A stretch of DNA of 64,000 nucleotides from Agromyces flavus (lineage in GTDB: Bacteria > Actinomycetota > Actinomycetes > Actinomycetales > Microbacteriaceae): NCBI RefSeq assembly GCF_900104685.1, contig NZ_LT629755.1, positions 1,674,001 through 1,738,000 of the forward strand, given 5' to 3'. Numbering within the stretch: position 1 is the stretch's first letter; each line of letters opens with the position of its first letter. This document shows positions 46,661 to 64,000 of this stretch, in pieces. Under the pieces are notes generated by a model. That model was given only the letters and a program-made list of their open reading frames with translations, was not told the DNA's origin and did not search any database. The translations under genes were made by a program, and so were the position numbers.

Positions 46661-49624
46661 TCAGCGCGTCAACCATGCGCGTCTCGCGGGCGCATGCTCA
46701 GGATGGGCGATCCAGCACTGGGCCGTCGGATCGTCGAGCAGCGGCGGGAGCGCCGTCGCCCGCGCCAGGGAGCGGAACTCGGCGTGGCCCCCATGCACGA
46801 CGATCGTCGCTCGGGACCGTGCTGCGTGCGCGAGCGACCAGTTCGCCGCCCAATCCTCGGCATCTCCGACGATCAGGCGAATCGCATGCGACTCGGTGCC
46901 GCTCCCCGCGGCGACGGACTCGAGGGCATCCATCGCCTGCACCGCGGTCCCGGGCGTCGATCCCAGCCGGATGACCTCCGCACCGGGCAGGTGTGCTCGC
47001 AGGGCCGTCGCGTCGGCCTCGGGCGTCGCCGAGGCGACCGCCGCGATCTCGAGCCCGTCGAACGCCACCGGTTCGATCGGGTGCTCGGCGGCGTCCGGGC
47101 GAAGATCGGAATGGAGGAACTGGGCCCGCAGGCCGCGCCACTGCCCGGAGCCGGGTGGCTCATGGGCGCCCCAGTGGGTGCCCGCTCCGCCGGCGTGGAC
47201 CAGATCGGAGCGCGAGGCGTGCCGGAGGAACGCGGTCGTCGTGAATCCGTCGCGGATCCCTGCGCCCATCCCGTTCGACCTGACCGCGGACGCTGCGACC
47301 GCGACGCCCGAGCGGCGTGAGATCCGGAGCAGTTCCTCGACCCGCAGCAACGCCGCGAGGCGATACTCGTCGGGCCAGGACGCGAACCGCGTGTCGAGGT
47401 CGTCGAGGACCACCAGCGCGGGCCGTCCGGCGCCGGCGTCGATTCCGCCCGAGGCCTCGAGCGCATCCCAGACGGCGCTCCGCGAGCCCTCGACCCGAAG
47501 CACCGACGAAAGGCCATGCCTCGCCTCCACCTGCCTCGCGATCGCCGCGAGCAGGCCGGAACGGCCCGAGTGCGGCGTTCCGAGCACGATCAGGGGTCCG
47601 TCGTGCGCGGGTCGCCACGCGGCGGGCGACCGACGCTGCCGATCGGGCTCGTCGACGACGCCGAGCAGGATCGCCTCGCCGTCGTCGGCCCCCCGACCGG
47701 CGATGCCTCGAGCGCCGCTCCGTCCGTGGGCGAGCACGGCGTCGACCGTGTCGAGCGTCACCAGCTCGGGAAGCGGATCCAGCCAGGGCCGCCGCGGCGG
47801 AGCGGCTTCGGCGTGGCAGGACGCGACGGCCTCGATCGCCTCCTCGTCGGCGATGGCCGACTGGAAGCGGATCCTCCGTCCGTCGCCGCCGTCGGCGATG
47901 CCCAGGCCCGGTCGGCCGGGCTCGAGCAGTGCCGCGCCGTCGGTCCCGACGACGGCCAGGCTGTCGGCGCGCTGCAGCACCCGCAGCGAGACCCGGATCC
48001 CGCAGTTCGCCATCACCTGCTCGCGCACGACGCCGTTCGGTCGCTGGGAGGCCAGGACCAGGTGCACGCCGAGCGACCGCCCGCGGGCAGCCAGGTCGGC
48101 GATGACGTCGCCGAGTTCGGGGAATCGCTCGACCATCGCCTGGAACTCGTCGACGACCACCACGAGACGAGGCAGTTCGATGCCGTCGGGAAGCGTCGCG
48201 AGGTCGCGCGCGCCCGCCGCCCGCAGCACCAGCTCGCGATGGCGGACTTCGGCACGCAGGCTCGCGACCGCCCGTGCCGCCTGGGTGTCGTCGAGGTCGG
48301 TCACGATCCCCGTGACGTGCGGGAGCGACGCGACCGGGGCGAATGCGGCGCCGCCCTTGAAGTCCACGAGGAGGAAGGCGACCCGGTCGGGCGGATGGGC
48401 GAGCGCGAGCGACGTGATCCACGCGAGCAGGAACTCGCTCTTGCCGCTGCCGGTCGTGCCCGCGACGAGCGCGTGCGGGCCGGACGTGAGCTCGAGCTCG
48501 ACGGGGCCGTCGTCGGCGATTCCGACCACGGCCGGGAGACGCGTCCGGTCGCCCGGACGGGCCGTCGCCGGAAGGGGAAGCGACGAGAACGGCACGCGAC
48601 GAGGCAGGTCGCGATCCGGACCGGCCAATCCGGCCCGCCTGGCGGCCTGCTCGAGCCGCGCGGCCCACGCCGACGCCTCGGCGACCGCGAGCAGTTCGGG
48701 CTCCACTTCGATCGGCCGTCGAGCCGTCCGATGCAGGACGCCCGTCCGCGGGCTCGCGAGGTGCAGCACCGAGCCGATCCCCGGTGGCAGCGCGGCGGGA
48801 TCGCGAGCGACCGCGATGCGGAATGCGGCACGCTGGCGTGCGCCCGCCGCGTCCGGCCCGTCGAGCCGCGTGGTGCGGGAGGGCTCGTGGACGACGAGCG
48901 TCGGCGACGGCGGGCCACCACGGCGATGCGGGAGCACCGTCGCCCACTCCCAATCGCGATCGGGGACCTGCAGGGCGAGTTCGGCGGGACCCACGGCGTC
49001 GGCGCACTGCACGAGCACGGCTCGCGCCGCGGCCCGGGCGAGCACCGGGTCGCCGACGAACCCGATGCCGTGGCGCACGTCGACGCGGACCGGTGCGCCG
49101 TCGAGCCGTGCGGTGTCGTCGACCAGCGCGGTATCCGCGTCGTCGACCGCGACACCGTCGAGCCTGAGCTCGCTGGCCACGGGACCGCGTCCGACCACGA
49201 TCGGGGGTGGCGCGGCGTGTCGCCACATCGGCACGGCGCGATCGACCGCAGCGCGCGCGGACGGCGAGCGGCGCCAGGCGGCATCGCGCTCGGTCGCATG
49301 GCGTGCCTCGACCTCGATGCGCAGTCGCGCGATCGCGTCGGCCCGATCGGCCAGGGCGCGCCGCCGGGCGCGCGCACCGATGCGACGGGCGTCGAGCATC
49401 GTGGCGAACGCGACGACAGGACCGAGCGCCGCGAAGACGAGCGCGAACGCGGAACCAGTGATCGCCCAGATCGCGATCGCCGCCGCAACCGGCGCGGTCG
49501 AGGCGATCCACGGGAATCCGGCTCGAGCGGGCTCGGCTGCGGCGGGTGGCAGCACGAGCGTCGCCGGGCCGGCGGGGCGATCGCGATCGGGCACCGGTCC
49601 AGCGGACCATACGCCGACGTCCAC
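46661..49624 (-). CDS. FtsK/SpoIIIE (EccC/EssC-like) membrane ATPase
   Basis: About 987 residues from a GTG at 49624; the start is uncertain. Two membrane helices near 41-78 precede two P-loop domains. Domain 1: Walker A 'AGTTGSGKSEFLL' near 386, 'LVDFKGGAAFAPV', Walker B 'LVVVVDEFQAMVERFP' near 486 and 'LASQRPNGVV'. Domain 2: degenerate 'LGTPHSGRSGLL' near 681 and 'LVVLDDLDTRF' near 735. 'DFKGGA' is the mark of type VII secretion ATPases (EccC/EssC) rather than chromosome translocases. Last gene of the kinase/FN3/MoxR/DUF58 block, 71 bases after the zinc-ribbon FHA gene. No WXG100 substrate gene is in the window. Confidence 0.85.
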   Translation of the reverse strand: MDVGVWSAGPVPDRDRPAGPATLVLPPAAAEPARAGFPWIASTAPVAAAIAIWAITGSAFALVFAALGPVVAFATMLDARRIGARARRRALADRADAIARLRIEVEARHATERDAAWRRSPSARAAVDRAVPMWRHAAPPPIVVGRGPVASELRLDGVAVDDADTALVDDTARLDGAPVRVDVRHGIGFVGDPVLARAAARAVLVQCADAVGPAELALQVPDRDWEWATVLPHRRGGPPSPTLVVHEPSRTTRLDGPDAAGARQRAAFRIAVARDPAALPPGIGSVLHLASPRTGVLHRTARRPIEVEPELLAVAEASAWAARLEQAARRAGLAGPDRDLPRRVPFSSLPLPATARPGDRTRLPAVVGIADDGPVELELTSGPHALVAGTTGSGKSEFLLAWITSLALAHPPDRVAFLLVDFKGGAAFAPVASLPHVTGIVTDLDDTQAARAVASLRAEVRHRELVLRAAGARDLATLPDGIELPRLVVVVDEFQAMVERFPELGDVIADLAARGRSLGVHLVLASQRPNGVVREQVMANCGIRVSLRVLQRADSLAVVGTDGAALLEPGRPGLGIADGGDGRRIRFQSAIADEEAIEAVASCHAEAAPPRRPWLDPLPELVTLDTVDAVLAHGRSGARGIAGRGADDGEAILLGVVDEPDRQRRSPAAWRPAHDGPLIVLGTPHSGRSGLLAAIARQVEARHGLSSVLRVEGSRSAVWDALEASGGIDAGAGRPALVVLDDLDTRFASWPDEYRLAALLRVEELLRISRRSGVAVAASAVRSNGMGAGIRDGFTTTAFLRHASRSDLVHAGGAGTHWGAHEPPGSGQWRGLRAQFLHSDLRPDAAEHPIEPVAFDGLEIAAVASATPEADATALRAHLPGAEVIRLGSTPGTAVQAMDALESVAAGSGTESHAIRLIVGDAEDWAANWSLAHAARSRATIVVHGGHAEFRSLARATALPPLLDDPTAQCWIAHPEHAPARRAWLTR

Positions 49625-49694
49625 GCCCGGCGACCCGGGCGGATCCGGCGGTCCGTGCGAACCGCAGGGGGTGTTGAGGAGGGCTGGCGCGCTC

Positions 49695-50303
49695 TCAGGC
49701 GACCGTGAAGGCCTGCTCGCCGATCTCCACGCGGCTGCCCCGGGGAACCTGCACCCGCCGCCCCGGCTCGCAGCGGAGGCCGTCCTCACCCGGACGCCGG
49801 ACGACCGTGCCGTTCGACGAGAAGCGGTCGGCGACCCACAGCCCGCCATCGTGCTCGCCGAACTCGAGGTGCGTCTTCGAGACCGAAAGCCCGCGATCGA
49901 CGATCTGGACGAGATGGGCGAAGGATTCACCGGGTTGCGGCATCGGGCGTCGCCCGATCAGTCCGTCGCCCGAGACGGTGACCACCTCGCCCGTCGTGAA
50001 GGTGAGCACGAACGCGGCCACCTGGGGTGCGACGGGCGAGGGGCCGGTGGACGCCTCGCCGCCCGGAGGCTCCTGCCGCATCGGTTCGCCGGGGTTCGCC
50101 GGCACCTCCGGAACCTCGACGGGCGGGTGGTCCTGGAGCGGCACGCTGATCACGCCGCTCTCCGAGCGATGCAGCACGTACGTGTCGCCGGGTCGCGGGT
50201 CGAGGGGACGGCGCGACTCCGGCGTCGCCGAGGTGGAGCTGCCGCATTCGCCGCAGAACATGGCGCCCTCGGGCAGCTGCGCCCCGCAGATCCTGCAGTT
50301 CAC
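49695..50303 (-). CDS. FHA-domain protein with N-terminal zinc ribbon
   Basis: 202 residues, GTG start. A zinc ribbon with Cys3, Cys6, Cys17 and Cys20 is followed by a Pro-rich linker and a C-terminal FHA domain (about 110-202) with the phosphothreonine-binding residues in 'LIGRRPMP', 'GLSVSKTHLEFGEH' and 'DRFSSNGTVV'. FHA domains bind proteins phosphorylated by Ser/Thr kinases such as the one encoded at 60878. It lies between the transglutaminase-like gene and the FtsK-like gene, so it may recruit the ATPase to phosphorylated partners. Confidence 0.9.
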   Translation of the reverse strand: MNCRICGAQLPEGAMFCGECGSSTSATPESRRPLDPRPGDTYVLHRSESGVISVPLQDHPPVEVPEVPANPGEPMRQEPPGGEASTGPSPVAPQVAAFVLTFTTGEVVTVSGDGLIGRRPMPQPGESFAHLVQIVDRGLSVSKTHLEFGEHDGGLWVADRFSSNGTVVRRPGEDGLRCEPGRRVQVPRGSRVEIGEQAFTVA

Positions 50304-52626
50304 GACCCGGCTCCCTTCCGCGAGCCAGCGTACCCCCGAGGGAACCCAGCGAGATCGCGGCCCGCATCCGCTCGCGCCGGGATCGCGGCTCGGCGAGGCG
50401 CCGCTGGAGTTCCTCCACCGCCGTCCACACGCGATCGTCGTCGCCGTCGCCCGGTCCGCCGGGCGCGTAGACGGCGCGGTCGACCACGGCGGCCAGGACG
50501 AGCGGGCCGAGCCCGCCCACGGTGGCGGCCTGCTCGGCGCGCGTCGCGGTGGGCCCGATGGGATATCCGTAGTCCGCGGCCGTGTCGGTGAACTCCTCCC
50601 AGCCGCCCTCGATGCGCTCGACGGATGTCGCAGCGCGGCGCCGCAGTCGCCGGCGACGCGCCTTGGCCGCGATGATGGCGGCGAAGGGCGCCGCGAGCAG
50701 CGCCATCACGGCCAGCACGATGCCCGCGACACGGAGCACTCCGAGGAGCGCGACGAGCCAGCCGGCGGTGTCGTCGGGATCGTCACGTCCCGGGTCTGGC
50801 TCGGCGGCGAGGTCGTCGACCGGGGTCGGATCGTCGGGCGGTGGCAGCGCCGACTGCGGTCGCGAGACGATGGTCGGCTCGTCGGGCTGGCGCTCGGGGA
50901 TGTCGCGCGGTTCGGGATTCGGGTCGACCTGGATCCAAGCGCCCTCGACCGACTGCACCTCGATCCAGGCCTGGAGGTCGTCGCTGCGGAACACGTGCGT
51001 CTTCTCACCGGCCTCGGCATCGCGCGGCGGGAGGTAGCCGACGACGACGCGCGCCGGGAAGCCGATGCTTCGAGCCATCAACGCGGCGGCGACCGCGTAC
51101 TGCTCCCCGTCGCCGATCATGGGCTTGGCGGTCGCCAGCTCGGCCAGGCGGTCGAGCGCGTGCCCGGACCGGCTCGGCTCATCCTCGTCGAGGCCGTGGC
51201 TCACATAGCCCTCGCGGTGGAAGCCCTCGATGACGGCGGCGAGGCGCTCGCCCTGCGAGGCCGACGCCGGCGCCCAGTCGTCGAGCAGGCGCGAGAGCTC
51301 GTCGGGCAGCTCGGGCGCCTCGGGCAGCACCGCACCGCCGGGGCTGAGGCGGCTGAGGTCCTGGCCCACGGGCGCGGCCATGGACTCCGCCTCGAACCCG
51401 TCGCCCTCGTGGAGCCCGTCGGGGAGGCCGCCGGTCCCGGTGACGTCGTTGTAGTGGAACTCCTCCCCGAGCGACCGCGGAGTGAAGCGGATCTCCTCGA
51501 GCTGGCCGATGCCGGGCACCCACACGTCGTCGTACCCGAGCACGTCCACGTCGATCCGCACCGGCTCGCCCGGCGCGGTGGATTGGTCGAGCCGGTAGGG
51601 CAGGCGCACGAACTGGCCGGACGCGGACGAACCGCCGCCGACCGAATAGACGACCCCGTCGTACGTGTCGAGCGTCGCGATGCGGATGCCGGCGCCCTCG
51701 GGCAGGCCCGTGACCGCGAGCATCTGCTCCGATGCGACGTCAGGCGCGTACGCCGCCCGGAAGCCGGCCAGCGGGCTCACGTACTTGTCGGGCTCGAACG
51801 GCGGCTGCAGCTCGGCGCGCACCACGTCGCGCGGGCCGGGCGGCACGACGAACGCGGCAGCCGTCGCGCCGACGACGGCGACGGCGGTCAGCACGGCCGC
51901 ACTCGCGATGCGGCGTGCGTCGATGAGCACGGCGTCCACGGGACGGTCGAGCATGGCCTTGCGACGCTCGCCGATGGCGATCCGTACGAGCCACGCCACG
52001 GTCGTCAACAGGAACGCCAGGCCGGCCTCGACCGCGAGGTCGTCGTGCACTACGCCGAGCGCGATGCCGGCGACGAAGACGACGGCGGGCGGGATGGCGG
52101 CCGTCGCCGGACGGCGCGTGCGCAGCGCGATGGTCGTGGCGAGCACGGAGGCGACGAGCCCGAGCAGGAACGGCGGGACCAGCAGCGCCTGGTACGTGCC
52201 GACCGGCACGGTGATCGTGACGAGCTGCTTCCACGACAGGGCCGTGGCCGTGACGAGGTCGACGAGTCCCTCTGCGGTCGGGAGCACGCCGAGGTAGGTC
52301 TGGGTCGGGACGGCCAAGGGGACGCCGAGGACGAGGAACGACGCGGCGACGCTGCACGCCACCACCCATGAGGGCCACGCGAAGATCGCACCGAGCAGGC
52401 CGACCACGCAGCCCGCGAGGACGGATCCGACCGCGGCGGCGATGAACTGGGGATGCTCGTACACGGGCCACCACGGGATCATCGCCGCGAGGACCATCGC
52501 GGCGACGAGGACCACCGAGAGCGCGACCGAGAGGGGGTTCCGTCCGTCCAGTCCGCGCGGCCGGCGTCGCAGCAGCCGGGCCGTCGGCGCGGGGCCGCCG
52601 AAGCGCTCGTCCGAGGAGACCGTCAT
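49927..52626 (-). CDS. Transglutaminase-like membrane protein, catalytically degenerate, probable 3' frameshift
   Basis: As read, 899 residues; the true end is probably near 50301. The ATG at 52626 overlaps the DUF58 stop. About six membrane helices (30-270), an extracytoplasmic transglutaminase-fold domain (about 280-600), one more helix near 635 and a cytosolic tail. The active-site segment reads 'GDGEQYAVAAALMARSIG' near 503, where active TgpA-type enzymes have Cys before Glu-Gln, and 'LQAWIEV' near 551 where His is expected: Cys and His are both missing. After 'AISLGSLGG' the frame runs 377 bases into the next gene; one extra G in the G5 run (50333-50337) would end it in GTGA at the FHA start. 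Confidence 0.85.
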   Translation of the reverse strand: MTVSSDERFGGPAPTARLLRRRPRGLDGRNPLSVALSVVLVAAMVLAAMIPWWPVYEHPQFIAAAVGSVLAGCVVGLLGAIFAWPSWVVACSVAASFLVLGVPLAVPTQTYLGVLPTAEGLVDLVTATALSWKQLVTITVPVGTYQALLVPPFLLGLVASVLATTIALRTRRPATAAIPPAVVFVAGIALGVVHDDLAVEAGLAFLLTTVAWLVRIAIGERRKAMLDRPVDAVLIDARRIASAAVLTAVAVVGATAAAFVVPPGPRDVVRAELQPPFEPDKYVSPLAGFRAAYAPDVASEQMLAVTGLPEGAGIRIATLDTYDGVVYSVGGGSSASGQFVRLPYRLDQSTAPGEPVRIDVDVLGYDDVWVPGIGQLEEIRFTPRSLGEEFHYNDVTGTGGLPDGLHEGDGFEAESMAAPVGQDLSRLSPGGAVLPEAPELPDELSRLLDDWAPASASQGERLAAVIEGFHREGYVSHGLDEDEPSRSGHALDRLAELATAKPMIGDGEQYAVAAALMARSIGFPARVVVGYLPPRDAEAGEKTHVFRSDDLQAWIEVQSVEGAWIQVDPNPEPRDIPERQPDEPTIVSRPQSALPPPDDPTPVDDLAAEPDPGRDDPDDTAGWLVALLGVLRVAGIVLAVMALLAAPFAAIIAAKARRRRLRRRAATSVERIEGGWEEFTDTAADYGYPIGPTATRAEQAATVGGLGPLVLAAVVDRAVYAPGGPGDGDDDRVWTAVEELQRRLAEPRSRRERMRAAISLGSLGGTLARGREPGRELQDLRGAAARGRHVLRRMRQLHLGDAGVAPSPRPATRRHVRAASLGERRDQRAAPGPPARRGSGGAGEPRRTDAAGASGRRGVHRPLARRTPGGRVRAHLHDGRGGHRLGRRTDRATPDAATR

Positions 52627-54005
52627 GCGACCGACGCCGTCCTCGCCAGCATCGAGCGGAGGTCGTCCAGGTACCCGATGTCCAGCACGGAGAGTCCGCC
52701 GACCACGCGCGCACTCGCCTCGCCCTCGTCGGAGCAGCGCACCACGACGCCCTCGACGCCGAGCGGGAGGCGGGCGGCCGCCGCCCGCAGGTCCGCGAGG
52801 CTCCTCCCGGCTCCGGTGACCAGGAAGGCGAGGGACACGCCCGTGACCGTCTCGGCGGCCGCCCGGACGGTCTCGGCGAGGCCGCTCATGCGCGTATCGA
52901 CCTCGACGACGCACAGCGCATCGAGCAGCCGATCGCGCGAGGCGGTCGGCAGCTCGCGCATCGCCGCACCCCGCGCGCCGCCGGTTCCCGGTCGCGTCCG
53001 GTCGGGTCGATCCGCGCGCTCGGCGGGCCGGGCTCGCTCTGGTGCCGGCCGGGCGGCCGCGGAGGTCACGAAGCTCAGGGTCCGGGCGTCTCGGATGGCA
53101 CGGGCGCCGAGGGAGGCGGCGGTGCTCACCGCGAGCTCGAAGTCGTCGGGATCCTCGTACGCATCGGCGGCGAGATCGAGCACGACCATGAGGCGGCTCC
53201 GGCGCGTCTCCTCGAACTGGCGCACCATGAAGGTGCCCGTCTTCGCCGAGCTCCGCCAGTGGATGAATCGGCGATCGTCGCCGGGCTGGTACTCACGCAG
53301 CGCATGGAAGGCGATGTCGCTGACCGTGAGATCCCGTGTCGGCGTGCCCTCGAGGTCGCGGAGGAATCCCGTGCTGAGGGGCGAGACGGCGATCGTGCGC
53401 GGGTGCACGTGCAGCATCCGGACTTCCGACCAGACGATCTCGCGCCGCATGAGCCCGACGGGGTCGGCGCGCACGGTTCGAACCGGGCCGACCGGGATGA
53501 CACCGCGACGCGTGGTCGGCACCGCGATCCGCTCGTCGAACGCGCCTCCACGAGGCAACGCGGGGATCATCCTGGTGAGGATCCTGGTGCCGACGGGGAG
53601 CTCGAGGCGGGCGGCGGCGAATCGCCTGCGACCGGGATTGTGCGCCTCGAGGCGAGCCTCGGCCGTCTCGCCGACCGCGACCCGATCGACCGGAAGCGTG
53701 AGCTCGATGCTTCCGGCGCCGCGCCCGGCGAGCCAGGCGGAGGCGAGCGCGACGAGGAGCCCGAGCCCCCACCCGATGACGACGAGCTCACCCCAGCCCC
53801 AGCCGTACCCGACGATCAGCGCCACGACCGCCGCGAAGACGATGCCCCAGCCGAGCGGGGTCACCACGCTCCGGACCGCAGCGGTCCATCGGTCTGCGAC
53901 GGATGCCGCGGCGCGGGCGGCCACGACGGCGCGCTCGATGATCACCGCGAGCAGGCCCTCCTTCGCGGCCTCCTCGGGGATCGTCGAGCGCGTGTGGAAG
54001 GTCAC
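52623..54005 (-). CDS. DUF58 family membrane protein
   Basis: 460 residues. Two membrane helices at about 48-95 precede the DUF58 domain with 'YQPGDDRRFIHWRSSAKTG' near 240-258 followed by a von Willebrand A-like fold ('LMVVLDLAADAYEDP'). DUF58 genes almost always follow MoxR ATPase genes and precede transglutaminase-like genes; the trio is thought to work as a unit, perhaps in metal insertion or folding of an envelope complex. Overlaps both neighbours by 4 bases. Confidence 0.92.
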   Translation of the reverse strand: MTFHTRSTIPEEAAKEGLLAVIIERAVVAARAAASVADRWTAAVRSVVTPLGWGIVFAAVVALIVGYGWGWGELVVIGWGLGLLVALASAWLAGRGAGSIELTLPVDRVAVGETAEARLEAHNPGRRRFAAARLELPVGTRILTRMIPALPRGGAFDERIAVPTTRRGVIPVGPVRTVRADPVGLMRREIVWSEVRMLHVHPRTIAVSPLSTGFLRDLEGTPTRDLTVSDIAFHALREYQPGDDRRFIHWRSSAKTGTFMVRQFEETRRSRLMVVLDLAADAYEDPDDFELAVSTAASLGARAIRDARTLSFVTSAAARPAPERARPAERADRPDRTRPGTGGARGAAMRELPTASRDRLLDALCVVEVDTRMSGLAETVRAAAETVTGVSLAFLVTGAGRSLADLRAAAARLPLGVEGVVVRCSDEGEASARVVGGLSVLDIGYLDDLRSMLARTASVA

Positions 54006-54973: not shown

Positions 54974-54992
54974 GCGTGCTCCTCCCCTGAGC

Positions 54993-57900
54993 TCATCGGG
55001 CCTCGAACCTCGCGGTCACGCCGGCCACCTCGACATCCAACCAGACCCGGTCGCCGGCCTTGGCACCGGGCACCTGGCACGAGGTCGCGGTCTGCGCCAC
55101 GCGGCCGACGCGGTCGCCGTCGGTGCCGCAGCGGAACGCGGCGGGCAGTCCGTTGTTCGCCGGGGCACCCGTCCACGACCACGTCGTCGTCGCGGCGTCG
55201 TAGGTGCGCCCGGGCAGGGCGAACGTCAACGTCGGGGACTCCCCCGATGGCAGCGTCTGGGACCAGGGACCGCATGAGCCCCACACCGAGCAGGCGCGGA
55301 CCTGGAATCGCGCGGTCTGGCCGAACGGGCGGTTCAGCAGCTGGCGCAGCCAACCCGACCCGTTGAAGTCGCGCGCGGTGCCGACGCGCGCACCGCTCGC
55401 GTCGACCGCGATGATCTGCAGGCGCTGCGATCCGGCGTCGACGTCGTCGATGTAGCGATCCCACGTCTCGGCGTTGAGCCACGCCATCTCGCTCCGCACG
55501 TCGCCCACCCCACCCGGCGCGGGGCGCACGACCGTCCCCGCGACGTCGGTGTGCACGCAACCGGCGCGGTTGAAGCCCCACACGATGAACGAGTACCGCG
55601 CGGATTCGGTGATCGTCCCCGCGAACTGGACGCTCGCGGCATCCGGACCCACCCGCACCATCTCGGCCACGACGCCGCCGACGGCCGGCGCCACGACCGT
55701 CCCGGGTGCGGGAGAGGTCACGGAGCACGCCTGCGCGCCCGTGGGAACCGACGACTCGCCCTCGACGAGTCGCTGCACGAAGTAGCCGGCGATCGGATCG
55801 CCGTTGCCGCCGAACGGAGACCACGACACGACCACCGAACCCGCGGCCGCATCGGCGGTGACCGAGATGTCGCCCGCGACGGGCGAGCCGAACGGCGTGC
55901 CCGTCGTGCTCGCCTCGGTCCACGCGGCGAGGGCCGGGAAGGCGCCGTTGCGCGCGCTGACCGAGACCTCGACCGTGCTGCCGTTCGCGAGTTCCTGCGA
56001 GTCGATCGAGCAGAGCGAGGCCGTGCACGCGCGGGACGCCGGGATCTCGACGGGTGCACCGGCGACGTCGACGACGTACGACTGCACCGCGCTGCCGGCG
56101 CCCGTGCCGACGGGAAGCCACTGCACGCGGAGGCGGCCGTCGAGCGGGAGCGCCTGCAGGCCCGACGCCGGCGCCGGGATCACGTCGGACCACACGGGCG
56201 TCGCGAGCTGCGCGGCATCCGAGAGCCCGATGCCGTTGCGGGCCTGGATGCTCACCTCGACGGCCGCGCCCGGACCGTTCCCGGGGGTCGGGATGGTGCA
56301 CGTCGTCGCGGCGCATTCGCTGGCGCCGATCTCCGCGCCGCTCGACGGGTCGAGCAAGGCGATGCGATACCCCTCGATCGGCGAGTTGTTCGCTGCTCCG
56401 GCGGCGAAGGCCACGTCGATCGCGCCGTCCTGGAAGGCGGTCATGCGCGCGTCGGCGACCGGGTCGGGTCGGTCCTGGACCGAGATCGTGGCCGTGCCCC
56501 ACGAGTAGCGGCTCGGATCGCCGGTCGCGTCGGCCACCTGGTACTGGATCGTCGTGTTCACGGGGGCCGCACCCTCGGACACGGCGACGGCGAGCCGCGA
56601 TCGATCGTCGCTCGGCGTCACGGACACCCCCGCCGGCAGGCTCGAGGCGTCGAGCCCTCGCACGCCGACGACGCGGAGCGGCGTGTCGGGGAACGGGTTG
56701 CCCGCCGCGTCGTTCGCGAGCACATCGACCGTCGTGGTCTGGCCGCGCGGGGCCACGGCGAGGTCGGGCGCGGGCTGGGCGACGGGTCGCGTGGAGGGCA
56801 CGACCTCGAGCTGGATCCGTCCGGCCGTGCCCTCGACGTCGCCGGCCGAGACGGCGATGCCGACCGACGCGCGCGTGCCCTTCGGCGTGGATTCGGACGT
56901 GGTGACCCGCAGCTCCTGGCCGTCGAGCGCGACGTCGAAGCCCGACGGCACCTCGCCGACCACGGCGAACTGCAGCGGGGGGCCGCCCTCGTCGGGCCGG
57001 CTCGTGAGTCGCACGAGGTCGATCGTGCGCGACTCACCCGGTTCGAATGGCAGGACGCCGCCGACGAAGGTCGGCGGCTGCCCCGGCTCGGGGAGCACCT
57101 CGATCGGGATGACGATGGTCCCGGTGCGGCCCTCCGGGTCGTCGACCGACTCGCCGTCGGTCACCGTGAAGGAGATCGACGCCGGGCCGAAGTAGCCCTC
57201 CTCGCTCCGATACCGCACGGTGTCGGCATCGACGACCAGGTCGCTGCCGTCGTCGTGCGATGCCCGCACCGTCGCGGCATCCGTCAAGCGCACGGGCCGA
57301 CCGGACGCCGCGACGACGTAGTCCTCGAGTTCGAGCACCGCCTCCTCGCCGGTGGCGACGCGCACCTCCGGGGCGTCGCGCCGCAGCTGCGGGAGGGCGT
57401 CGTCGCGCCCGGGAACCCAGACGAAGGCGTAGGCCCGGACGCCGGGGTCCTCGGGATGGCCGACGGAGAACGGCACGATGCGCCGACGATCCTGCACTTC
57501 GATGCTGATCGAGCCGTCACCGGTGACGCGTGCGCCGTCGTCGTAGCCGTCGACGAGCGCCACGTCGGCGTCGCCGGCATCGGCGTCGGCGATGAACACG
57601 CCGTCGAGGACGTCGACGTCGACCTGCTCCTCCTCGAGCACGTCGCTGAGGCTGAGCACGACGTCGGAAGCCTCGGGCCGGGAGAGCGGGGCGTCGGCGT
57701 CCGCCTCGATCCGCAGGAACGTCGACGCGGTTCCGAGCCGGGCGTTCTCGATCGCGTAGATGAAGCCGTACTGCCCCTCGCGGTCGGGGACCTCGACCCT
57801 GATCTCGCGACCGCGGTCGCGGATCTTCGCGGTCGCGCCGCCCGTGACCTCCTCGACCGAGACGACCTTGAGCGTCGAGCCGTCGGGGTCGGAGTCGTTC

Positions 57901-60878
57901 TCGAGCACGCGCACCGCGACCGTGCGGCCCGGGCGGACCGTCACGGAATCGTCGACCGCGACCGGTGAGCGCGCGCCGCCGAGTCCCGGTGCGACGCCGA
58001 CCCGGACCGTGCCGGTCGCGCGCGCGCCGAGCGCGTCGACCACGGCGTACGAGAAGGTGTCGGTGCCGGCCGAGTACTCCCCCGCCCGGTACTCGAGCCA
58101 GTCGGGTCCGCGCGAGACGACCGAGCCGCGCTCGGGATTCGACTCCTGACCGAGCAGCTGCACGGAGTCGCCGTCGGGATCGGTGCCGCCGAGCGGGATC
58201 GGGATGCGCACGGTGTCGCCGGACAGCACCCGCGCCGTCGCCGTGCGGGGCACGGGGGCCGCGTTGGTCTGCGCGTCGGCCTCGCGCACGGTGATCGCCA
58301 CGGACGCCGTGGCGAACTGGCCGTCGGGTCCCTCCACGCGGTAGACCGCCTCGAACTCGCCGGGACGATCCGGAGCGTGGTAGCGGAGCCGGTCCCCGGA
58401 GGTGAAGAGGAGCCCCGCCTGCGGCGGGGTCACGAGGTCGGCGGCGAGCGTGAGCGCGTCGCCGTCGGGATGCGTGTCGTTGTCGAGCACGGCGATGTCG
58501 ATCACGTCACCGGTGCGCGCCGAGGCGGTGTCGGCGACCGCGACCGGCGGCTGGAACTGCGCGGGCGTGGGCACCTCGACCACCGTGACCTCGCCCTCGG
58601 CGTCGGCGAGGCCGTTGCTCACGCGGTACCCGAACGTCGCGGAGCCCGTCGGGAGCGGGCGCGTGAGCGTGACGCGCAGCACGCGGTGGTCGACGATCTC
58701 GACGCGCACGCCGGGGTCGTCGGGCGCACGGCCCGGGCCGGTGATGATGAGCACGCCACCGATCGGATCGATGTCCGTCGCGAGGACGTCGACCTCCATC
58801 GGGTGGTCCTGCCGGAGGAACGCCGTGTGCGGCACCGTGATCGGCGTGGTGTCCCGTTCCGGTGGGGCGGACACCTCGACTCGGACGCGACCGGTCGCCG
58901 TCTTCGCACCATCCGTCACGGTGTACTCGAGGTAGTGCGTGCGGATCGCCTCGCCGACGAATCGGAAGGTGCCGCCGTCGAAGTCGGGCGTGATCCTCGC
59001 CTCGGGCTTCGCGGGCACGGCCGACAAGCGCGCCTCGCCAGAGCCGCCTCGAACGTGCCGGAGCGGTTCGAGCACGATCTCCTCGCCGAGGGTCGCGAGC
59101 ACGACGAACGCGTCGGCGACGAGCGGGGCCTCGCCCGTCCGCCGAACCGACATCGTGAGCACGCCGACGCCGTCGGCCCGGCCGTCCGACACGACGAGCG
59201 AGACGGCACGCGTGGAGCCCTCGCCACCGCGTTCGTCGAAGAGGACGACGCCCTCGGCGGTCGACGTCACGGCGTCGGGTTCGTCGACGCCCGCCGCCCG
59301 GAGGAAGACCGGGTCCCCGTCGGGATCGACCCATTCGCCGAGGACCGGGACGGTCGCTCGCCCGGTCACCTCGACGACGGCGCGACCCTCGCGAACCTGC
59401 TTGGGCGGCGAGTTCTCGTCGGGTGCGCGCACGGTCACCGTGATCCTCGCCTGGGCGGTCCCTCCCCGGCCGTCGTCGATCGTGTACCGGAGGCCGAACG
59501 TGCCGGTCGCCGCGTCGTCGAGCGTGAGCTGGACCTGCTGCTGGTTGGCGACCAGGTCGAGATGGGCGCCGTCGGGCAGGTCGCCGTCGACCGACGAGAC
59601 GATGAGCACGTCGCCGTTGGCGTCGTAGTCGTTGAGGAGCACGGGGAGCAGGGTCGAGCGACCGGGGCGCGCGCCGAAGTCGTCGTCGACCGCGACGGGC
59701 GCCACCTGGCTCTTCTCGATGGTCGGGTCGGCCTCGGGATCGTTCTGCTCGATGGTCTCGTCGTCGCGCTCGACCTCGAGCAGGTCGGCCCAGTTGTCGA
59801 TGACGCCGTAGTCCTCGGATGCCGCCCAGCTGCGGCCGGAGCGTCGGTCGTTCACCACGAGCGCATCGCCGTTCGCGAGGAAGGTCAGCGGCGCGCCGCG
59901 GGCGGCGCGGTCCAGTCTCACCGGCTCCCCCTTGGCCTCGCCGCATGCGCGCCACGCGGTGCCGTCGCCCCAGGCGGCGTGCAGGCAGCCGTGGTGGCGC
60001 ACGGGTTGGGCAGGCGTACCGGATGCCTCGTCGTACCGGATCCGGGGCTCCGACCCGTCGAACGGCACCTCGACGAGCCCCCGACGGGTGGCGAGCACCA
60101 CCGCGTCGGCGGCACCGGACGGTCGCTGCAACGCGAGGGTCTCGCCCGGGTCCGCGAAGTCCGACAGGTCGACGTCTGCGGCGCCCTCGCGGTGCAGCAC
60201 CAGGGCGCGCTCGTCGAGCACGGCCCAGCGACCGCCGACCGAGGTCACCTGGGCGGGGGCGCCCTCCTCCAACCGCCCGAGCTCCCACGTCGCATCCGCC
60301 GAATCCGGGTCGTCGGCGGAGACCCGGACCACCTTGCCGGTCGACGGCGTGAACGCGGTGATCCGCCCGGCCTCGTCGACCGCGATGACGGAACCGGCGC
60401 CGAACGTGAACGCCGCATCCTCGTCGCTCTCGAACTCGGCGAACGCCTCGACCGGCACGACCCACAGGGACCCGTCCGCGGTGACGACCACGCGATCTCC
60501 GGCGAGCGCGATGTCGGGCTCGTCGGGCGGGACCGCGACGGTCTCGGAGACGCGCGAGATGGTGGGGTCGACGATGCCGACGCTCGCCCGGCTGCGATCG
60601 AGCACCAGCACGGTCGAGCCCCGCTGCACGACCTCGGCCTGCGCCCCGCCGCCCGTCTCGACCACCGAATTCAGTTCGAGCACCGCGGTGTTCGCACGAC
60701 CGACGGACTGTTCGGTGTCGTTGGCCACCCAGACGGCCGCGTCCCCGAGGTCGACCCGCTGGGCGGTGTACCCGCCGGACGCGATGGCGACGCCGGCCGC
60801 GAGCCCGACCACGGCGGCGATCGAGACGACGGTGAGCACCGCGGACCGGCGCCGCCGCCAGAGTGCCAGGGGGTCCAT
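54993..60878 (-). CDS. Giant surface protein with Ig-like (cadherin-like) repeats and FN3 domains
   Basis: 1961 residues; the ATG at 60878 shares one base with the kinase stop. One membrane helix at about 12-34 leaves nearly the whole protein outside. Residues ~40-375 look like a WD-type propeller. From ~390 to ~1460 there are about eight Ig-like repeats of the 'VLxNDxDPDGDxL' kind ('VAVDDSVTVRPGRTVAVRVL', 'VLDNDTHPDGDALTL'). Three FN3 domains follow at ~1469-1800 with paired cysteines, then a last domain ending 'VEVAGVTARFEAR'. It matches the FN3 member of bifidobacterial PFNA clusters. Role: probably adhesion or cell-wall scaffold contacting the kinase ectodomain. Confidence 0.88.
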   Translation of the reverse strand: MDPLALWRRRRSAVLTVVSIAAVVGLAAGVAIASGGYTAQRVDLGDAAVWVANDTEQSVGRANTAVLELNSVVETGGGAQAEVVQRGSTVLVLDRSRASVGIVDPTISRVSETVAVPPDEPDIALAGDRVVVTADGSLWVVPVEAFAEFESDEDAAFTFGAGSVIAVDEAGRITAFTPSTGKVVRVSADDPDSADATWELGRLEEGAPAQVTSVGGRWAVLDERALVLHREGAADVDLSDFADPGETLALQRPSGAADAVVLATRRGLVEVPFDGSEPRIRYDEASGTPAQPVRHHGCLHAAWGDGTAWRACGEAKGEPVRLDRAARGAPLTFLANGDALVVNDRRSGRSWAASEDYGVIDNWADLLEVERDDETIEQNDPEADPTIEKSQVAPVAVDDDFGARPGRSTLLPVLLNDYDANGDVLIVSSVDGDLPDGAHLDLVANQQQVQLTLDDAATGTFGLRYTIDDGRGGTAQARITVTVRAPDENSPPKQVREGRAVVEVTGRATVPVLGEWVDPDGDPVFLRAAGVDEPDAVTSTAEGVVLFDERGGEGSTRAVSLVVSDGRADGVGVLTMSVRRTGEAPLVADAFVVLATLGEEIVLEPLRHVRGGSGEARLSAVPAKPEARITPDFDGGTFRFVGEAIRTHYLEYTVTDGAKTATGRVRVEVSAPPERDTTPITVPHTAFLRQDHPMEVDVLATDIDPIGGVLIITGPGRAPDDPGVRVEIVDHRVLRVTLTRPLPTGSATFGYRVSNGLADAEGEVTVVEVPTPAQFQPPVAVADTASARTGDVIDIAVLDNDTHPDGDALTLAADLVTPPQAGLLFTSGDRLRYHAPDRPGEFEAVYRVEGPDGQFATASVAITVREADAQTNAAPVPRTATARVLSGDTVRIPIPLGGTDPDGDSVQLLGQESNPERGSVVSRGPDWLEYRAGEYSAGTDTFSYAVVDALGARATGTVRVGVAPGLGGARSPVAVDDSVTVRPGRTVAVRVLENDSDPDGSTLKVVSVEEVTGGATAKIRDRGREIRVEVPDREGQYGFIYAIENARLGTASTFLRIEADADAPLSRPEASDVVLSLSDVLEEEQVDVDVLDGVFIADADAGDADVALVDGYDDGARVTGDGSISIEVQDRRRIVPFSVGHPEDPGVRAYAFVWVPGRDDALPQLRRDAPEVRVATGEEAVLELEDYVVAASGRPVRLTDAATVRASHDDGSDLVVDADTVRYRSEEGYFGPASISFTVTDGESVDDPEGRTGTIVIPIEVLPEPGQPPTFVGGVLPFEPGESRTIDLVRLTSRPDEGGPPLQFAVVGEVPSGFDVALDGQELRVTTSESTPKGTRASVGIAVSAGDVEGTAGRIQLEVVPSTRPVAQPAPDLAVAPRGQTTTVDVLANDAAGNPFPDTPLRVVGVRGLDASSLPAGVSVTPSDDRSRLAVAVSEGAAPVNTTIQYQVADATGDPSRYSWGTATISVQDRPDPVADARMTAFQDGAIDVAFAAGAANNSPIEGYRIALLDPSSGAEIGASECAATTCTIPTPGNGPGAAVEVSIQARNGIGLSDAAQLATPVWSDVIPAPASGLQALPLDGRLRVQWLPVGTGAGSAVQSYVVDVAGAPVEIPASRACTASLCSIDSQELANGSTVEVSVSARNGAFPALAAWTEASTTGTPFGSPVAGDISVTADAAAGSVVVSWSPFGGNGDPIAGYFVQRLVEGESSVPTGAQACSVTSPAPGTVVAPAVGGVVAEMVRVGPDAASVQFAGTITESARYSFIVWGFNRAGCVHTDVAGTVVRPAPGGVGDVRSEMAWLNAETWDRYIDDVDAGSQRLQIIAVDASGARVGTARDFNGSGWLRQLLNRPFGQTARFQVRACSVWGSCGPWSQTLPSGESPTLTFALPGRTYDAATTTWSWTGAPANNGLPAAFRCGTDGDRVGRVAQTATSCQVPGAKAGDRVWLDVEVAGVTARFEAR

Positions 60879-62290
60879 CAGCGTGCCTCGACCTCGGCGC
60901 AGCGCTCGGCGCTCGGGGTGCCGGACTTGCCGTCGCGCGCCACCGCGACCGTGGCGCACACGCGCCCGGATTCGCCGGCCGCCACCGTGAGCGTCGCCTC
61001 CTCCTGCGGAGGCCGTGCGCTTCCGTCGATCGTGACCACGTAGCTGTCGCCTTGCCGCAGCCCGCCCGGATCATCCCACGAGAACACCACGGCCGCGCCA
61101 TCCGTCACCGCCTTGACGTCGGTGACCACCGGGATGCCGCCGGCCCCGCGTACGAGCGTGAGCAGCCCGGCCACCACGAGCGCGACGAACACGGCGGCCG
61201 CGACACCGACGCCGAGCAGCAGCCTCCGCGTCGTCGGCGGCGCGCTCCGGCTTCGTCCGGACATCGAGCCGTGCGAGCGGGAGTCGGCGGTCCGCGTCGA
61301 GGGACGGGCCGCGGTCGAGGCGCGACGGCGACGGCGACGCGACGACGAGGTCTCGACGACCGAACCCGCCCCGAGTCGCGTGCGCTCGTCGAGGTCGACC
61401 GCCGTCGCGATGGCCCAGTCGTCCATCGCCACCTCGAGCGGTGTCTGGGGCAGCGCAAGCTCCTCCTCGACGGCCTGCAGGTCGCGGATGAACTCCAGCG
61501 CGCTCGCCTGGCGAGCCGAGGGCCGCTTCGACATCGAGCGCGCGAGCACCGCCTCGAGGCTCGCGGGCACGTCGGCGCGGCCCGTGGGCGGCACCTTCGC
61601 CTTCTCGATGCGAGTCACGAGCGCCATGGTCCCGTTGTCGCCGCCCGGGACCTCGAAGGGGCTGCGACCCGCGAGCAGCGAGTAGACGGTCGCGCCGAGC
61701 GACCACACCTCGCTCGCGACGGTGCCCGCGACCTCGTCGAGCAGCACCTCGGGCGCCGACCACGGGACGGAGAGGCCCACCGCCTCGCTGGACTCGGCCT
61801 GTCCGAGGGTCGAGGCGATCCCGAAGTCGGACAGCACCGGATGGCCGTACGCCGTGGTCAGGATGTTCGACGGCTTGATGTCGCGGTGGAGGACGCCCTG
61901 ACGGTGCGCGGTCTCGACGGCGCTCGCGATGCGGACGCCGATCGAGAGGACCTCGGCGATGGGGAGCTGGACGGCCCGGTACCGCTGGCCCAGCGTGGCG
62001 GAGCAGTACTCCATGACGAGATAGGGCCGGCCGTCGGCGGCGACGCTGGCCTGGTAGACCGTGAGGATCGACGGATGGCTCGACAGCTGCGCCATGAGGT
62101 TGGCCTCGGCCTGGAACATCTGGCGCACCTCGTCGTTGACGACCTCGGCGAGGAGCACCTTCACCGCCACGAGGCGACGGGGCATGTTCTGCTCGTAGAG
62201 GAACACGTCGGCGAACCCGCCTGATCCGAGCACGCGGATGAAGGAAAACCCGGGCAGGTTCGGCGGCGTGGACGGAAGTCGCCTCGACAC
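60878..62290 (-). CDS. Transmembrane Ser/Thr protein kinase with extracellular FN3-like domain
   Basis: 470 residues from a GTG at 62290 with GGGAGG just before it. PknB-type kinase: P-loop 'LGSGGFADV' (21-29), Lys44, Glu62, catalytic 'HRDIKPSN' (135-142), 'DFG' (155-157) and 'WSAPEV'. A basic Ser/Arg-rich juxtamembrane stretch leads to one helix 'LLLGVGVAAAVFVALVVAGL' near 367-386. The extracellular part is a single FN3-like domain, not PASTA repeats, and it resembles the last domain of the adjacent surface protein. It corresponds to Pkb2 of bifidobacterial PFNA clusters. Preceded by a promoter and a 22-bp palindrome. Confidence 0.93.
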   Translation of the reverse strand: MSRRLPSTPPNLPGFSFIRVLGSGGFADVFLYEQNMPRRLVAVKVLLAEVVNDEVRQMFQAEANLMAQLSSHPSILTVYQASVAADGRPYLVMEYCSATLGQRYRAVQLPIAEVLSIGVRIASAVETAHRQGVLHRDIKPSNILTTAYGHPVLSDFGIASTLGQAESSEAVGLSVPWSAPEVLLDEVAGTVASEVWSLGATVYSLLAGRSPFEVPGGDNGTMALVTRIEKAKVPPTGRADVPASLEAVLARSMSKRPSARQASALEFIRDLQAVEEELALPQTPLEVAMDDWAIATAVDLDERTRLGAGSVVETSSSRRRRRRASTAARPSTRTADSRSHGSMSGRSRSAPPTTRRLLLGVGVAAAVFVALVVAGLLTLVRGAGGIPVVTDVKAVTDGAAVVFSWDDPGGLRQGDSYVVTIDGSARPPQEEATLTVAAGESGRVCATVAVARDGKSGTPSAERCAEVEAR

Positions 62291-62334
62291 GTTCCTCCCA
62301 GCGTCTCCTCGGGTGCCTGGGGTGCGGCGCACCG

Positions 62335-62356: not shown

Positions 62357-62369
62357 GCATCGAACCCCA

Positions 62370-62397
62370 ATTGTAGGGTCGGCGGATGCCGTTGCCA
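62370..62397 (-). promoter_or_regulatory. Predicted promoter of the kinase-FN3-MoxR-DUF58 operon
   Basis: On the minus strand -10 TACAAT (62370-62375) is close to consensus, with -35 TGGCAA (62392-62397) 16 bases upstream. It is the only gap long enough for a promoter between the phosphatase gene and the rest of the block. Confidence 0.55.
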
Positions 62398-62446
62398 CGG
62401 CTGTTGTGGACGGGGTCGCCGCGCCCGACGGGGGCGCTCGCGAGGC

Positions 62447-63256
62447 TCAGCCGTCGGCGTCGGGTGCGCGCTCGGGCCGTGCCACGCGGAGCACGTCGAC
62501 GACCACGACCGTGACGTTGTCGCGACCGCCGTTCCCGACCGCGGCCTCGACGAGCTGGTGCACGGCCTGCTCGGGTCGCCGGCCCGAGATGAGGAAGTGG
62601 CGGATCCCGTACGAGGTCAGCTCCTTCGTGAGCCCGTCGGAGCAGACGAGCAGCCGCATGCCCTCCTCGAGCGCGATCGCCCGGTAGTCGGGGATCGGGG
62701 CCTCGTGGAAGCCCACGGCCCGCGTGATCACGTTGGAGTGGGGATGGGTGTCCGCCTCCTCGCGCGTGATCTGCCCGGCGTCGACCAGCTCCTGCACGAT
62801 CGAGTGGTCGACCGTCAATTGCTCGAGGACGCCGCCGACGAGCCGGTAGACGCGCGAGTCGCCGATGTTGAACACGATCCACGCGGGCTCGTCGCCGATC
62901 AGCCCGAGGGCGACGCCCGTGACGGTCGTCCCGCTCCCCTCGTCGGTGACGCCCGCGCCGCGGCCCATGTCCTGCACCGCGAGCCGCAGCGCGCCGTCGA
63001 TGTCGGGGGTGCCGAGTGCGGGCTTGCCGCCGTGCTCTGCGAGGCGGGTCACGACCGCGGCGCTCGCGAAGTCGCCGGCGGCATGGCCGCCCATGCCGTC
63101 GGCGACGGCGAAGATGGGCGCCTGGGCGACGAAGCTGTCCTCGTTGACGGCTCGACGCAGGCCGGTGTCGGTCGCGGCGGCCCATGAGAGGGTCACCTCG
63201 GTACCGTCGGGCAGGCTGACGCGATGGCGGGTGTTGGCGTTGCCGATCTGGGTCAC
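62447..63256 (-). CDS. PP2C-family Ser/Thr phosphatase
   Basis: 269 residues, soluble. Metal-binding motifs of PP2C/PPM are present: 'NEDSF' (38-42), 'VADGMGGHAAGDFAS' (51-65), 'GSGTTVTGVAL', 'FNIGDSRVYRL', 'CSDGLTKEL' and 'DNVTVVVVDV'. It should reverse the action of the kinase at 60878. The start overlaps the FHA gene stop (ATGA). Unlike mycobacterial PstP it has no membrane helix. Confidence 0.94.
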   Translation of the reverse strand: MTQIGNANTRHRVSLPDGTEVTLSWAAATDTGLRRAVNEDSFVAQAPIFAVADGMGGHAAGDFASAAVVTRLAEHGGKPALGTPDIDGALRLAVQDMGRGAGVTDEGSGTTVTGVALGLIGDEPAWIVFNIGDSRVYRLVGGVLEQLTVDHSIVQELVDAGQITREEADTHPHSNVITRAVGFHEAPIPDYRAIALEEGMRLLVCSDGLTKELTSYGIRHFLISGRRPEQAVHQLVEAAVGNGGRDNVTVVVVDVLRVARPERAPDADG

Positions 63257-64000
63257 GGGACCTCCCCCCGTCCGGCCGCCGCGACCGAGTCGGCGACCTC
63301 GCGGGAAGCGAGGATCTCGACGAGCGCCTCGCCTCCCAGCTCGAGCGTGGTCCCCGGCGAGACCACCACCGATTCCCCCGGACGCAGGCGACGCACGCCC
63401 GCCGTCGAGCGGACGACCGTGCCGTTCGTGGAGCGGAGGTCGGTCGCCACCACGCGGCTGCCCTCGACGCGCAACTCGAGATGTGTCGATGACACGACGC
63501 CCCCGGGCGAGTCGACGCGGACCAGCGAGATCGGCCCGGGCGCCACGCGCGGCGGAGCAGGATTCCGGCCGATGTAGGCCGGCGCATCGATGGTCCTCGG
63601 CTCGCCTCCGCCGATGCGGAAGCGGGCGACGGTCCGGGCCGCCTGGTCGGCGCTCGGCGCTGCCCCGTGCGCGTCACGCTCGGAATCGGGGGCTGCGGCA
63701 TCCGATCGCCCGGCGTCGTCGGCATCGCCTCGGTCGCCCCCGCGAAGCAGGCGCGGCGAGAGCACCGTGTCGGCGTCGGCCGCATCGCCGCGCACGAAGC
63801 GGACGGTGTCGCCCACCACGACCTGGATCGGCACGGTCGTCGGCCCGTCGCCGTCGCTGCGCGTCGCGCGTGCACCCGGGCGTGCGCCCCCGGTCGGCGG
63901 CCGCCGCGCCTCGAGCACGGTGTCGACATCGGGATCGGCGGACTCCGCGCCCGACGGCAGCTCGCGCCACGACCATTCGACGGCCCCGGCCCGGAACGAC
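63253..64000 (-). CDS. FHA-domain protein, N-terminus beyond the window
   Basis: Partial: the frame is open to the right edge (about 248 residues visible). A GTG at 63918 could start a shorter protein but the upstream part ('GAVEWSWRELPSGAES') also looks coding. The FHA domain is at the C-terminal end, with 'AYIGRNPAPP', 'VVSSTHLELRVEGSRVVATDLRSTNG' in two parts and 'VVVSPGTTLELGG'. A motif 'DxDTVLxxR' occurs twice before it ('DVDTVLEAR', 'DADTVLSPR'). FHA proteins of this sort are kinase substrates that then bind partners. Co-transcribed with the PP2C gene. Confidence 0.85.
   Translation of the reverse strand, partial: SFRAGAVEWSWRELPSGAESADPDVDTVLEARRPPTGGARPGARATRSDGDGPTTVPIQVVVGDTVRFVRGDAADADTVLSPRLLRGGDRGDADDAGRSDAAAPDSERDAHGAAPSADQAARTVARFRIGGGEPRTIDAPAYIGRNPAPPRVAPGPISLVRVDSPGGVVSSTHLELRVEGSRVVATDLRSTNGTVVRSTAGVRRLRPGESVVVSPGTTLELGGEALVEILASREVADSVAAAGRGEVP

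Follow-up and report, generated by a model that had tools for sequence, protein, structure and literature searches.

A PFNA-like gene cluster of Agromyces flavus with a short EccC/EssC-family ATPase and paralogous blocks in type VII secretion loci

Results

A nine-gene block on the minus strand

We analyzed 64,000 nucleotides of the Agromyces flavus genome (RefSeq assembly GCF_900104685.1, contig NZ_LT629755.1, positions 1,674,001 to 1,738,000; hereafter the window), which carry a gene cluster resembling the PFNA operon of bifidobacteria together with an ATPase gene related to those of type VII secretion systems (T7SSs). Profile scans and frame reading confirmed a nine-gene block on the minus strand, from 46661 to slightly beyond 64000, and Pfam and NCBIfam scans returned the families that a sequence-only reading of this DNA had named. 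Lengths are in amino acids (aa); G and L handles denote genomes and fetched loci.

63253..64000, minus strand: FHA protein (phosphothreonine reader), about 396 aa; Pfam FHA; start outside the window, equivalent to 64443, read in L011
62447..63256, minus strand: PP2C-type phosphatase, 269 aa; Pfam PP2C_2; NCBIfam Stp1 194 bits, below the cut-off of 230
60878..62290, minus strand: transmembrane Ser/Thr kinase; Pfam Pkinase; GTG start chosen, frame extends to 62398
54993..60878, minus strand: Ig-repeat envelope giant, 1961 aa; Pfam Big_9/cadherin-like repeats, hydropathy and alignments
54002..54973, minus strand: MoxR AAA+ ATPase, 323 aa; Pfam AAA_3, 3.7e-63
52623..54005, minus strand: DUF58 membrane protein, 460 aa; Pfam DUF58; three hydrophobic stretches toward the N terminus
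49927..52626, minus strand: TgpA-like polytopic membrane protein with a pseudo-transglutaminase domain (TGM); Pfam Transglut_core and TgpA_N
49695..50303, minus strand: zinc-ribbon FHA protein, 202 aa; Pfam FHA; Zn_Ribbon_1 24.7 bits, cut-off 25
46661..49624, minus strand: short EccC/EssC-family ATPase, about 987 aa; NCBIfam, PDB, alignments, trees and model; GTG start inferred

The PFNA gene order, kinase-giant-MoxR-DUF58-TGM, was present as proposed. The junctions depend on the chosen start codons; with these, overlaps of 1–4 bases, which the sequence-only reading had noted at most junctions, occurred at four of eight, three others being gaps of 156, 19 and 70 bases. At the remaining junction the last 377 bases of the TGM frame are shared, in a different frame, with the zinc-ribbon FHA gene (49927–50303). 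The closest named relatives of TGM come from Agromyces. TGM matches in relatives mostly stop near residue 775; two named Agromyces loci also match the TGM query as far as residues 860 and 869. By hydropathy the kinase has a single hydrophobic helix (residues 357–375). The giant starts with an N-terminal hydrophobic helix and a conserved N-terminal region of about 400 aa, followed by Big_9/cadherin-like repeats; simple hydropathy gave a clear helix at residues 14–32 and one weak internal stretch. Its proposed length and Ig-type repeats were borne out. As to its FN3 label, no Pfam fn3 match was found at E ≤ 0.01, and the C-terminal part is fn3-like by eye only.

The ATPase groups with EccC and EssC

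The ATPase has two transmembrane helices, a stalk, a first ATPase domain (D1) with intact motifs, a degenerate D2 and a vestigial D3 without a P-loop; a DFKGG motif lies at residue 421. Its EccC-like character, already suspected from the sequence, held when EccC/EssC and FtsK profiles were run (NCBIfam EssC 216 bits and EccCa 208 bits vs FtsK 68 bits). In a PDB comparison the closest solved structure was EccC of Thermomonospora curvata (4nh0), with further matches to B. subtilis YukB and to structures of mycobacterial EccC. Compared with eight full-length EccC proteins by hhalign, the transmembrane region, stalk, D1 and D2 aligned over 802 columns (E 2e-128). In profile-profile comparison D2 paired with EccC D2 at 99.7%, and the C-terminal ~150 aa matched EccC D3 at only 6.7% probability. 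An AlphaFold model (mean pLDDT 84.4, pTM 0.65) best matched 4nh0 (1.6e-31), the best FtsK match being 2.2e-14; modelled residues 860–983 form a small alpha/beta remnant. Across the alignment of window-type ATPases, D1 Walker A and the Walker B Asp-Glu were kept in 27/27 rows with some conservative changes, and the D2 Walker lysine in 13/27.

Two quick D1 trees were computed, the second omitting seven long rows (five diverged short ATPases, T_G005 and W_L080) and adding six. Window-type ATPases formed one clade (SH-aLRT 98) on the EccC/EssC side, with FtsK separate at 100, and stood apart from full-length EccC, from short bifidobacterial-type ATPases and from FtsK. A grouping with chromosome translocases, which the sequence-only reading had named as fatal to a secretion role, was thus not what the trees gave. 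On these sequence and model comparisons the protein is a member of the EccC/EssC family; we rejected a DNA translocase, as profile scores, PDB and model matches and the trees all favor EccC over FtsK. The ATPase itself had no Pfam FHA match, the FHA domains sitting on separate proteins. A ubiquitin-like N-terminal domain in full-length ATPases was a by-eye impression with no Pfam match at E ≤ 0.01. The third ATPase domain of EccC is reported to bind the EsxB signal (PMC6954902). Since D3 is vestigial in the window ATPase, the usual recognition of WXG100 proteins would be unlikely there.

Paralogous blocks lie inside T7SS loci

A profile of the giant's N terminus matched 70 of 80 genomes of the family of A. 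flavus, several matches lying near a T7SS ATPase. Among the fetched loci, 16 from seven families combine block genes with a full-length EccC (G002, G043, G045, G049, G050 with two, G081, G351, G303, G286, G359, G235, G311, G233, G158 and G118), of which those of G002, G043, G045, G049 and G050 (two) belong to the own family. All eight non-ATPase genes (PP2C, FHA, kinase, Ig, MoxR, DUF58, TGM, FHA) were present in 11/16 and seven of them in 5/16; no second FHA gene was seen in G050 C10, G311, G235 or G118, and no PP2C in G050 C4. WXG100 matches exceeded the Pfam cut-off in 11 of these loci; three (G045, G233, G351) gave matches under it, the last two only slightly, and two (G081, G303) gave none. 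Outside the family, 22 Ig loci reached 130 bits or more; we fetched all of them but G197 and G346, and 10 of the 20 contained a full-length EccC, with WXG100 above the cut-off in G158, G118, G235, G286, G311 and G359; a 54-bit T7EccC match in G206 was left out of the counts.

Gene order in the G158 locus is near-identical to the window: PP2C-FHA-kinase-(FHA-like)-Ig-MoxR-DUF58-TGM-FHA protein-EccC-WXG100. The G002 locus reads EccC-WXG100-...-LXG-like-...-WXG100-PP2C-FHA-kinase-(FHA-like, by eye)-Ig-MoxR-DUF58-TGM-FHA, followed by rpsL-rpsG-like genes, and its LXG-like protein matches Pfam T7SS_signal. None of EccB, EccD, EccE, EssB or EsaA was found among ten proteins scanned from one block-type T7SS locus (L090–L091). 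Two full-length block-linked ATPases scored, like the window ATPase, under the NCBIfam EccC/EssC cut-offs. Tandem duplicates of the Ig giant occur in L108–L109 (G351), in L096 (G053) and at G434:C1:1430268 and 1436656.

In a quick midpoint-rooted tree built from the MoxR, TGM and DUF58 proteins of 54 blocks, those linked to a T7SS were scattered, with nine changes. The G050 C4 block, which has a full EccC and WXG100, was sister to a window-type block (support 99), and the PFNA-type clade was sister to a pair containing a T7SS-linked block (support 99). At G050 C4 (L087–L088) this window-side block stands beside WXG100 and a full-length EccC whose ATPase groups with a T7SSd-like one of G432; the locus is possibly a hybrid.

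Co-location across the order

We then used an order-wide sample of 119 genomes, with 73 Ig-profile matches and the EccC matches listed at about 231 bits or more; six weak Ig fragment rows below 51 bits (two in G226, one each in G413, G421, G335 and G430) were omitted. Among the EccC matches listed, 25/73 Ig genes lay within 30 kb of one, where uniform placement expects 1.87, and random placement gave at most 8 co-locations in 20,000 draws. Outside the own family the figure was 21/60 vs 1.47 expected, again among the matches listed. Window-type clusters from the genus itself account for three of the 25, and in two genomes a pair of tandem matches was counted. Seen from the ATPase, an Ig match lay within 30 kb of 18/32 listed EccC matches of at least 390 bits vs 5/118 weaker ones.

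The cluster within its own family

By reading of the match listings, 49 of the 80 family genomes carry a window-type ATPase. An Ig gene occurs somewhere in 48 of these 49 genomes vs 22 of the 31 others. Of 40 fetched ATPase neighborhoods, 28 hold the Ig gene, MoxR and DUF58 within 20 kb, so the cluster is more than a chance assembly. The sequence-only reading had turned on whether the ATPase is absent from most orthologous clusters; among 80 named clusters, its gene lay no more than 3 kb past TGM in 68, and three further clusters are cut short.

The ATPase is nevertheless separable from the block core. Frigoribacterium loci L207, L208, L211 and L212 keep the core with only 30–60-bit ATPase remnants, and Leifsonia loci L174, L175, L191, L192 and L216 keep it with no ATPase within 10 kb past TGM; both appear to be natural ATPase losses. 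Among family loci with the ATPase and no Ig gene in the fetched 20 kb, three share upstream neighbors with the cluster by eye: L045 has an aldehyde dehydrogenase gene, L053 YaaA and atp genes, and L051 a DUF4192-like gene. A closely related core is located elsewhere in G002, G033 and G077. The 1.6-Mb genome G059 retains all nine genes, and the family-wide search gave no further EccC in it; the ATPase frame there measures only 855 aa, and the profile match reads through two stops.

Catalytic and binding residues

Aligned with TgpA (6g49), TGM has Gly507 in place of the catalytic Cys and Gln552 in place of the His. Among 54 block TGMs, six from family f43 included, the transglutaminase Cys was found in none and the His in 12. 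Cross-linking by an active transglutaminase was therefore rejected.

The other sites are intact in window-type loci. The FHA residues R, S, H and N, which we take to be the phosphothreonine-binding motif, were invariant in the first FHA protein (24/24 rows) and in the zinc-ribbon FHA protein (26/26). The kinase HRD and DFG Asp were present in 28/28 rows and its Lys in 27, with one gap; PP2C Asp53 and Asp246 were invariant in 26/26 rows and MoxR Lys56, Asp113 and Glu114 in 28/28. Such conservation would fit phospho-gating. The zinc-ribbon FHA protein may be the counterpart of the FHA domain that full-length EccC/EssC proteins carry as a fusion.

WXG100 genes, flanking genes and a second block

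Two WXG100 genes occur in the genome, one at 186 kb and one at 373 kb; the cluster itself lies at about 1.72–1.74 Mb. The 186-kb gene is in a T7SS locus of its own, which includes an FHA-bearing EccC frame and is flanked by rpoC-like and rpsL-like genes (by eye). The other, an orphan at 373615–373905, has groEL on one side and an MtrB-like sensor kinase gene on the other (named by eye). The same setting recurs in seven fetched loci (L242–L248), from six genomes with the window type as their only EccC, the 1.6-Mb G059 included, plus G066; the WXG100 frame itself was uncalled by the gene picker in L243 and L246. Of 17 family genomes with the window type as sole EccC, 16 have exactly one WXG100 above the cut-off. 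Nine of ten genomes with neither EccC type on a strict reading also keep a WXG100, and the profile detects a diverged short EccC in six of those ten. G066 (97% complete) keeps its WXG100 with no EccC found by profile, so a partnership of the orphan with the window ATPase is only a lead; as a proven partner it was rejected, the association being unsupported in 80 genomes.

The sequence-only reading had pointed to DNA right of the window as the place to look for WXG100 or EccD-like genes. That was not borne out: nine genes rightward and one leftward contained no T7SS family (EccD profiles were not used, and DNA further left was not searched). No EccB, EccD, EccE, EssA, EssB or EsaA was seen among the nine cluster genes and the ten flanking genes, to which the scan was confined. 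To the right lie aldehyde dehydrogenase, class-III aminotransferase, DUF4192 protein, YaaA-family and atp genes; to the left, at 45286–46554, an extracellular solute-binding protein (polyamine type by eye). With this gene on one side and aldehyde dehydrogenase/aminotransferase on the other (L009, 473–4077), the cluster looks as if inserted into a polyamine locus.

A second, paralogous PFNA-type block lies at 842–862 kb of the same genome (L089), with PP2C, FHA, kinase, Ig, MoxR, DUF58, TGM and FHA genes and no EccC within the fetched 20 kb. Its clade takes in the T7SS-linked blocks of G002, G043 and G050.

Discussion

An EccC-related ATPase within the cluster, and relatives of the block within T7SS loci, suggest that a gene set known from gut bifidobacteria as a host-sensing operon probably belongs to a machine for protein export or surface assembly. 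We give a probability of roughly 0.55 to the cluster encoding a T7SS-derived envelope complex controlled by Ser/Thr phosphorylation. The type VII-like idea of the sequence-only reading survives in that both block and ATPase are T7SS-linked; it fails in that no WXG100 gene is linked and D3 is not normal. Its wording, that the ATPase turns the block into such a system, was rejected because the EccC of the T7SS loci that hold paralogous blocks is another, full-length protein: the T7SS link is carried by the block as such and not by the ATPase alone.

What we observed is homology, a gene order, the linkage of paralogous blocks to T7SS genes, and catalytic residues lost or retained; from this we infer a complex, an order of events and a cargo as follows. 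The pseudo-transglutaminase, DUF58 and the two-helix EccC-like ATPase would form a membrane complex that MoxR, an AAA+ protein, might remodel or assemble, and the Ig giant would cross the wall as a column or adhesin. Kinase and PP2C would set a phosphorylation state read by the two FHA proteins, governing assembly or docking of the ATPase; here the zinc-ribbon FHA protein could work in trans like the fused FHA domain of EssC-like ATPases. ATP hydrolysis by D1 would then drive assembly, display or export of surface proteins. A WXG100 protein recognized in the known way is an improbable cargo, given the vestigial D3 and the lack of a linked WXG100 gene.

Several observations weigh against this reading. 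The ATPase scores below the NCBIfam equivalog cut-offs (EssC 778, EccCa 509 bits). No EccC was seen near 10 of the 20 fetched non-family blocks, and 39/60 non-family Ig matches were not near a listed EccC, contig ends included; the co-location counts also treat related genomes singly and are uncorrected for relatedness and small-genome effects. Within the family, the ATPase comes without an Ig gene in the surrounding 20 kb in 12/40 loci, of which 11 keep PP2C. The 68 clusters with an ATPase after TGM include four Frigoribacterium fragments of 30–60 bits and a few others cut by contig ends. In 9/80 named clusters the ATPase is missing near TGM despite room: five Leifsonia, Okibacterium, Mycetocola, one Frigoribacterium and one Salinibacterium (L201, ATPase further on).

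That separability is what one would expect if the ATPase were an unrelated neighbor and the T7SS linkage of the paralogues mere local gene crowding. We consider this very improbable, given 25/73 Ig genes near a listed EccC against 1.87 expected, a linkage spanning seven families and similar orders in distant genomes. An envelope-sensing or wall-homeostasis signaling complex without transport, in which the EccC-like protein serves as scaffold or as energy-dependent switch, would account for the intact kinase, PP2C and FHA sites, for blocks with no EccC nearby and for the retention of all nine genes in 1.6-Mb G059, which suggests a housekeeping role. The strong T7SS linkage of the block and the D1 Walker motifs kept in every row argue against it, and we hold it to be unlikely. 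We see about as little chance that the cluster is a working secretion system for the orphan WXG100, with substrate recognition shifted to another subunit. Here the single WXG100 of nearly all genomes with the window type as sole EccC, and its conserved groEL/sensor-kinase position in the own genome and seven loci, stand against its persistence in genomes with neither EccC type, G066 among them, and against the vestigial D3; export of WXG100 by the window cluster may be a wrong idea.

A wider extension of the phospho-controlled envelope complex is tentative. PFNA-type blocks might be the membrane core of an unnamed actinobacterial T7SS subtype. Around an EssC-like ATPase, MoxR, DUF58, the pseudo-transglutaminase and the Ig giant would stand in for EccB/D/E or EssA/EssB/EsaA, with gating through kinase, PP2C and FHA. 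The "cytokine-sensing" operon of bifidobacteria would be one daughter system and the window cluster another, the latter with its vestigial D3 and a different cargo independent of WXG100.

The work links bifidobacterial PFNA operons, studied as host-cytokine receptors, with actinobacterial T7SS diversity, two subjects unjoined in the literature searched. If the envelope-complex reading is true, PFNA would be a secretion or surface-assembly module whose "transglutaminase/cysteine protease" is catalytically dead, and T7SS variants would exist in Micrococcales-type bacteria. Natural experiments are available in an ATPase absent beside the block (Leifsonia), one apart from the core (Okibacterium) and all nine genes in a 1.6-Mb genome.

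Comparison with known systems

Cassettes of MoxR, DUF58 and transglutaminase genes are a known grouping. The window TGM has the TgpA_N and Transglut_core domains in common with TgpA and differs from it in lacking the catalytic Cys. With T7SSa and T7SSb (ESX, Ess) the window shares the EccC/EssC ATPase family; those systems have EccB/D/E or EssB/EsaA, none of which was among the ten L090–L091 proteins. In one open literature library (bioRxiv, figures and supplements outside scope) we found no paper linking MoxR-DUF58-TGM or PFNA to T7SS, no MoxR-DUF58-pseudo-TGM-PP2C-FHA block as a T7SS part, no equation of such a block with PFNA and no short ATPase with a vestigial D3.

The PFNA operon, as described in PMC8430577, runs kinase-giant-MoxR-DUF58-TGM, with PP2C and FHA genes, and is published as a bifidobacteria-only cytokine sensor; its Pkb2 phosphorylates the operon's own MoxR, and its tgm is called a presumed cysteine protease in that review. 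The window has the same one-strand core order. It differs in its ATPase, which that account of the operon does not list, and in the Big_9-type repeats of its giant. In family f43 (probably Bifidobacteriaceae, judging by gene order and genome size; genomes of 1.8–2.7 Mb, one of 0.8 Mb) seven genomes matched the Ig profile at 179–226 bits. Six loci read kinase-Ig-MoxR-DUF58-TGM, followed in L262, L263 and L267 by PP2C and FHA, with FHA on the opposite strand in two; this resembles closely the published PFNA arrangement. Probable bifidobacterial loci L269–L273 have a still shorter EccC-like ATPase (frames of 593–688 aa) away from PFNA, that of L270 beside WhiB-like and LytR-like genes (by eye).

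The closest published system is T7SSd, in which Garrett, Higginson and Palmer (2024, PMC11217815) joined a kinase, an Ig-like giant and an EssC-like ATPase in Actinomycetota, so that this union is already known. As published, T7SSd consists of five core components, among them WXG100, an FHA-ATPase fusion and TsdH; the terms MoxR, DUF58 and transglutaminase never occur in the main text of the paper. The window, by comparison, has no linked WXG100, carries its FHA domains on separate proteins, has an ATPase without a normal D3, and adds PP2C, MoxR, DUF58 and the pseudo-TGM. The T7SSd giant TsdI, proposed as envelope-spanning, has a C-terminal transmembrane helix; for the window giant, simple hydropathy gives a clear helix only at residues 14–32, plus one weak internal stretch. 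In our sample a T7SSd-looking locus in G432 (L265; WXG100-kinase-147 aa-1798 aa-ATPase-FHA) lies within 30 kb of that genome's PFNA block. What T7SSd and the window have in common is that both are actinobacterial and combine an EssC-like ATPase, a membrane Ser/Thr kinase and an Ig-like giant, with possible phospho-control.

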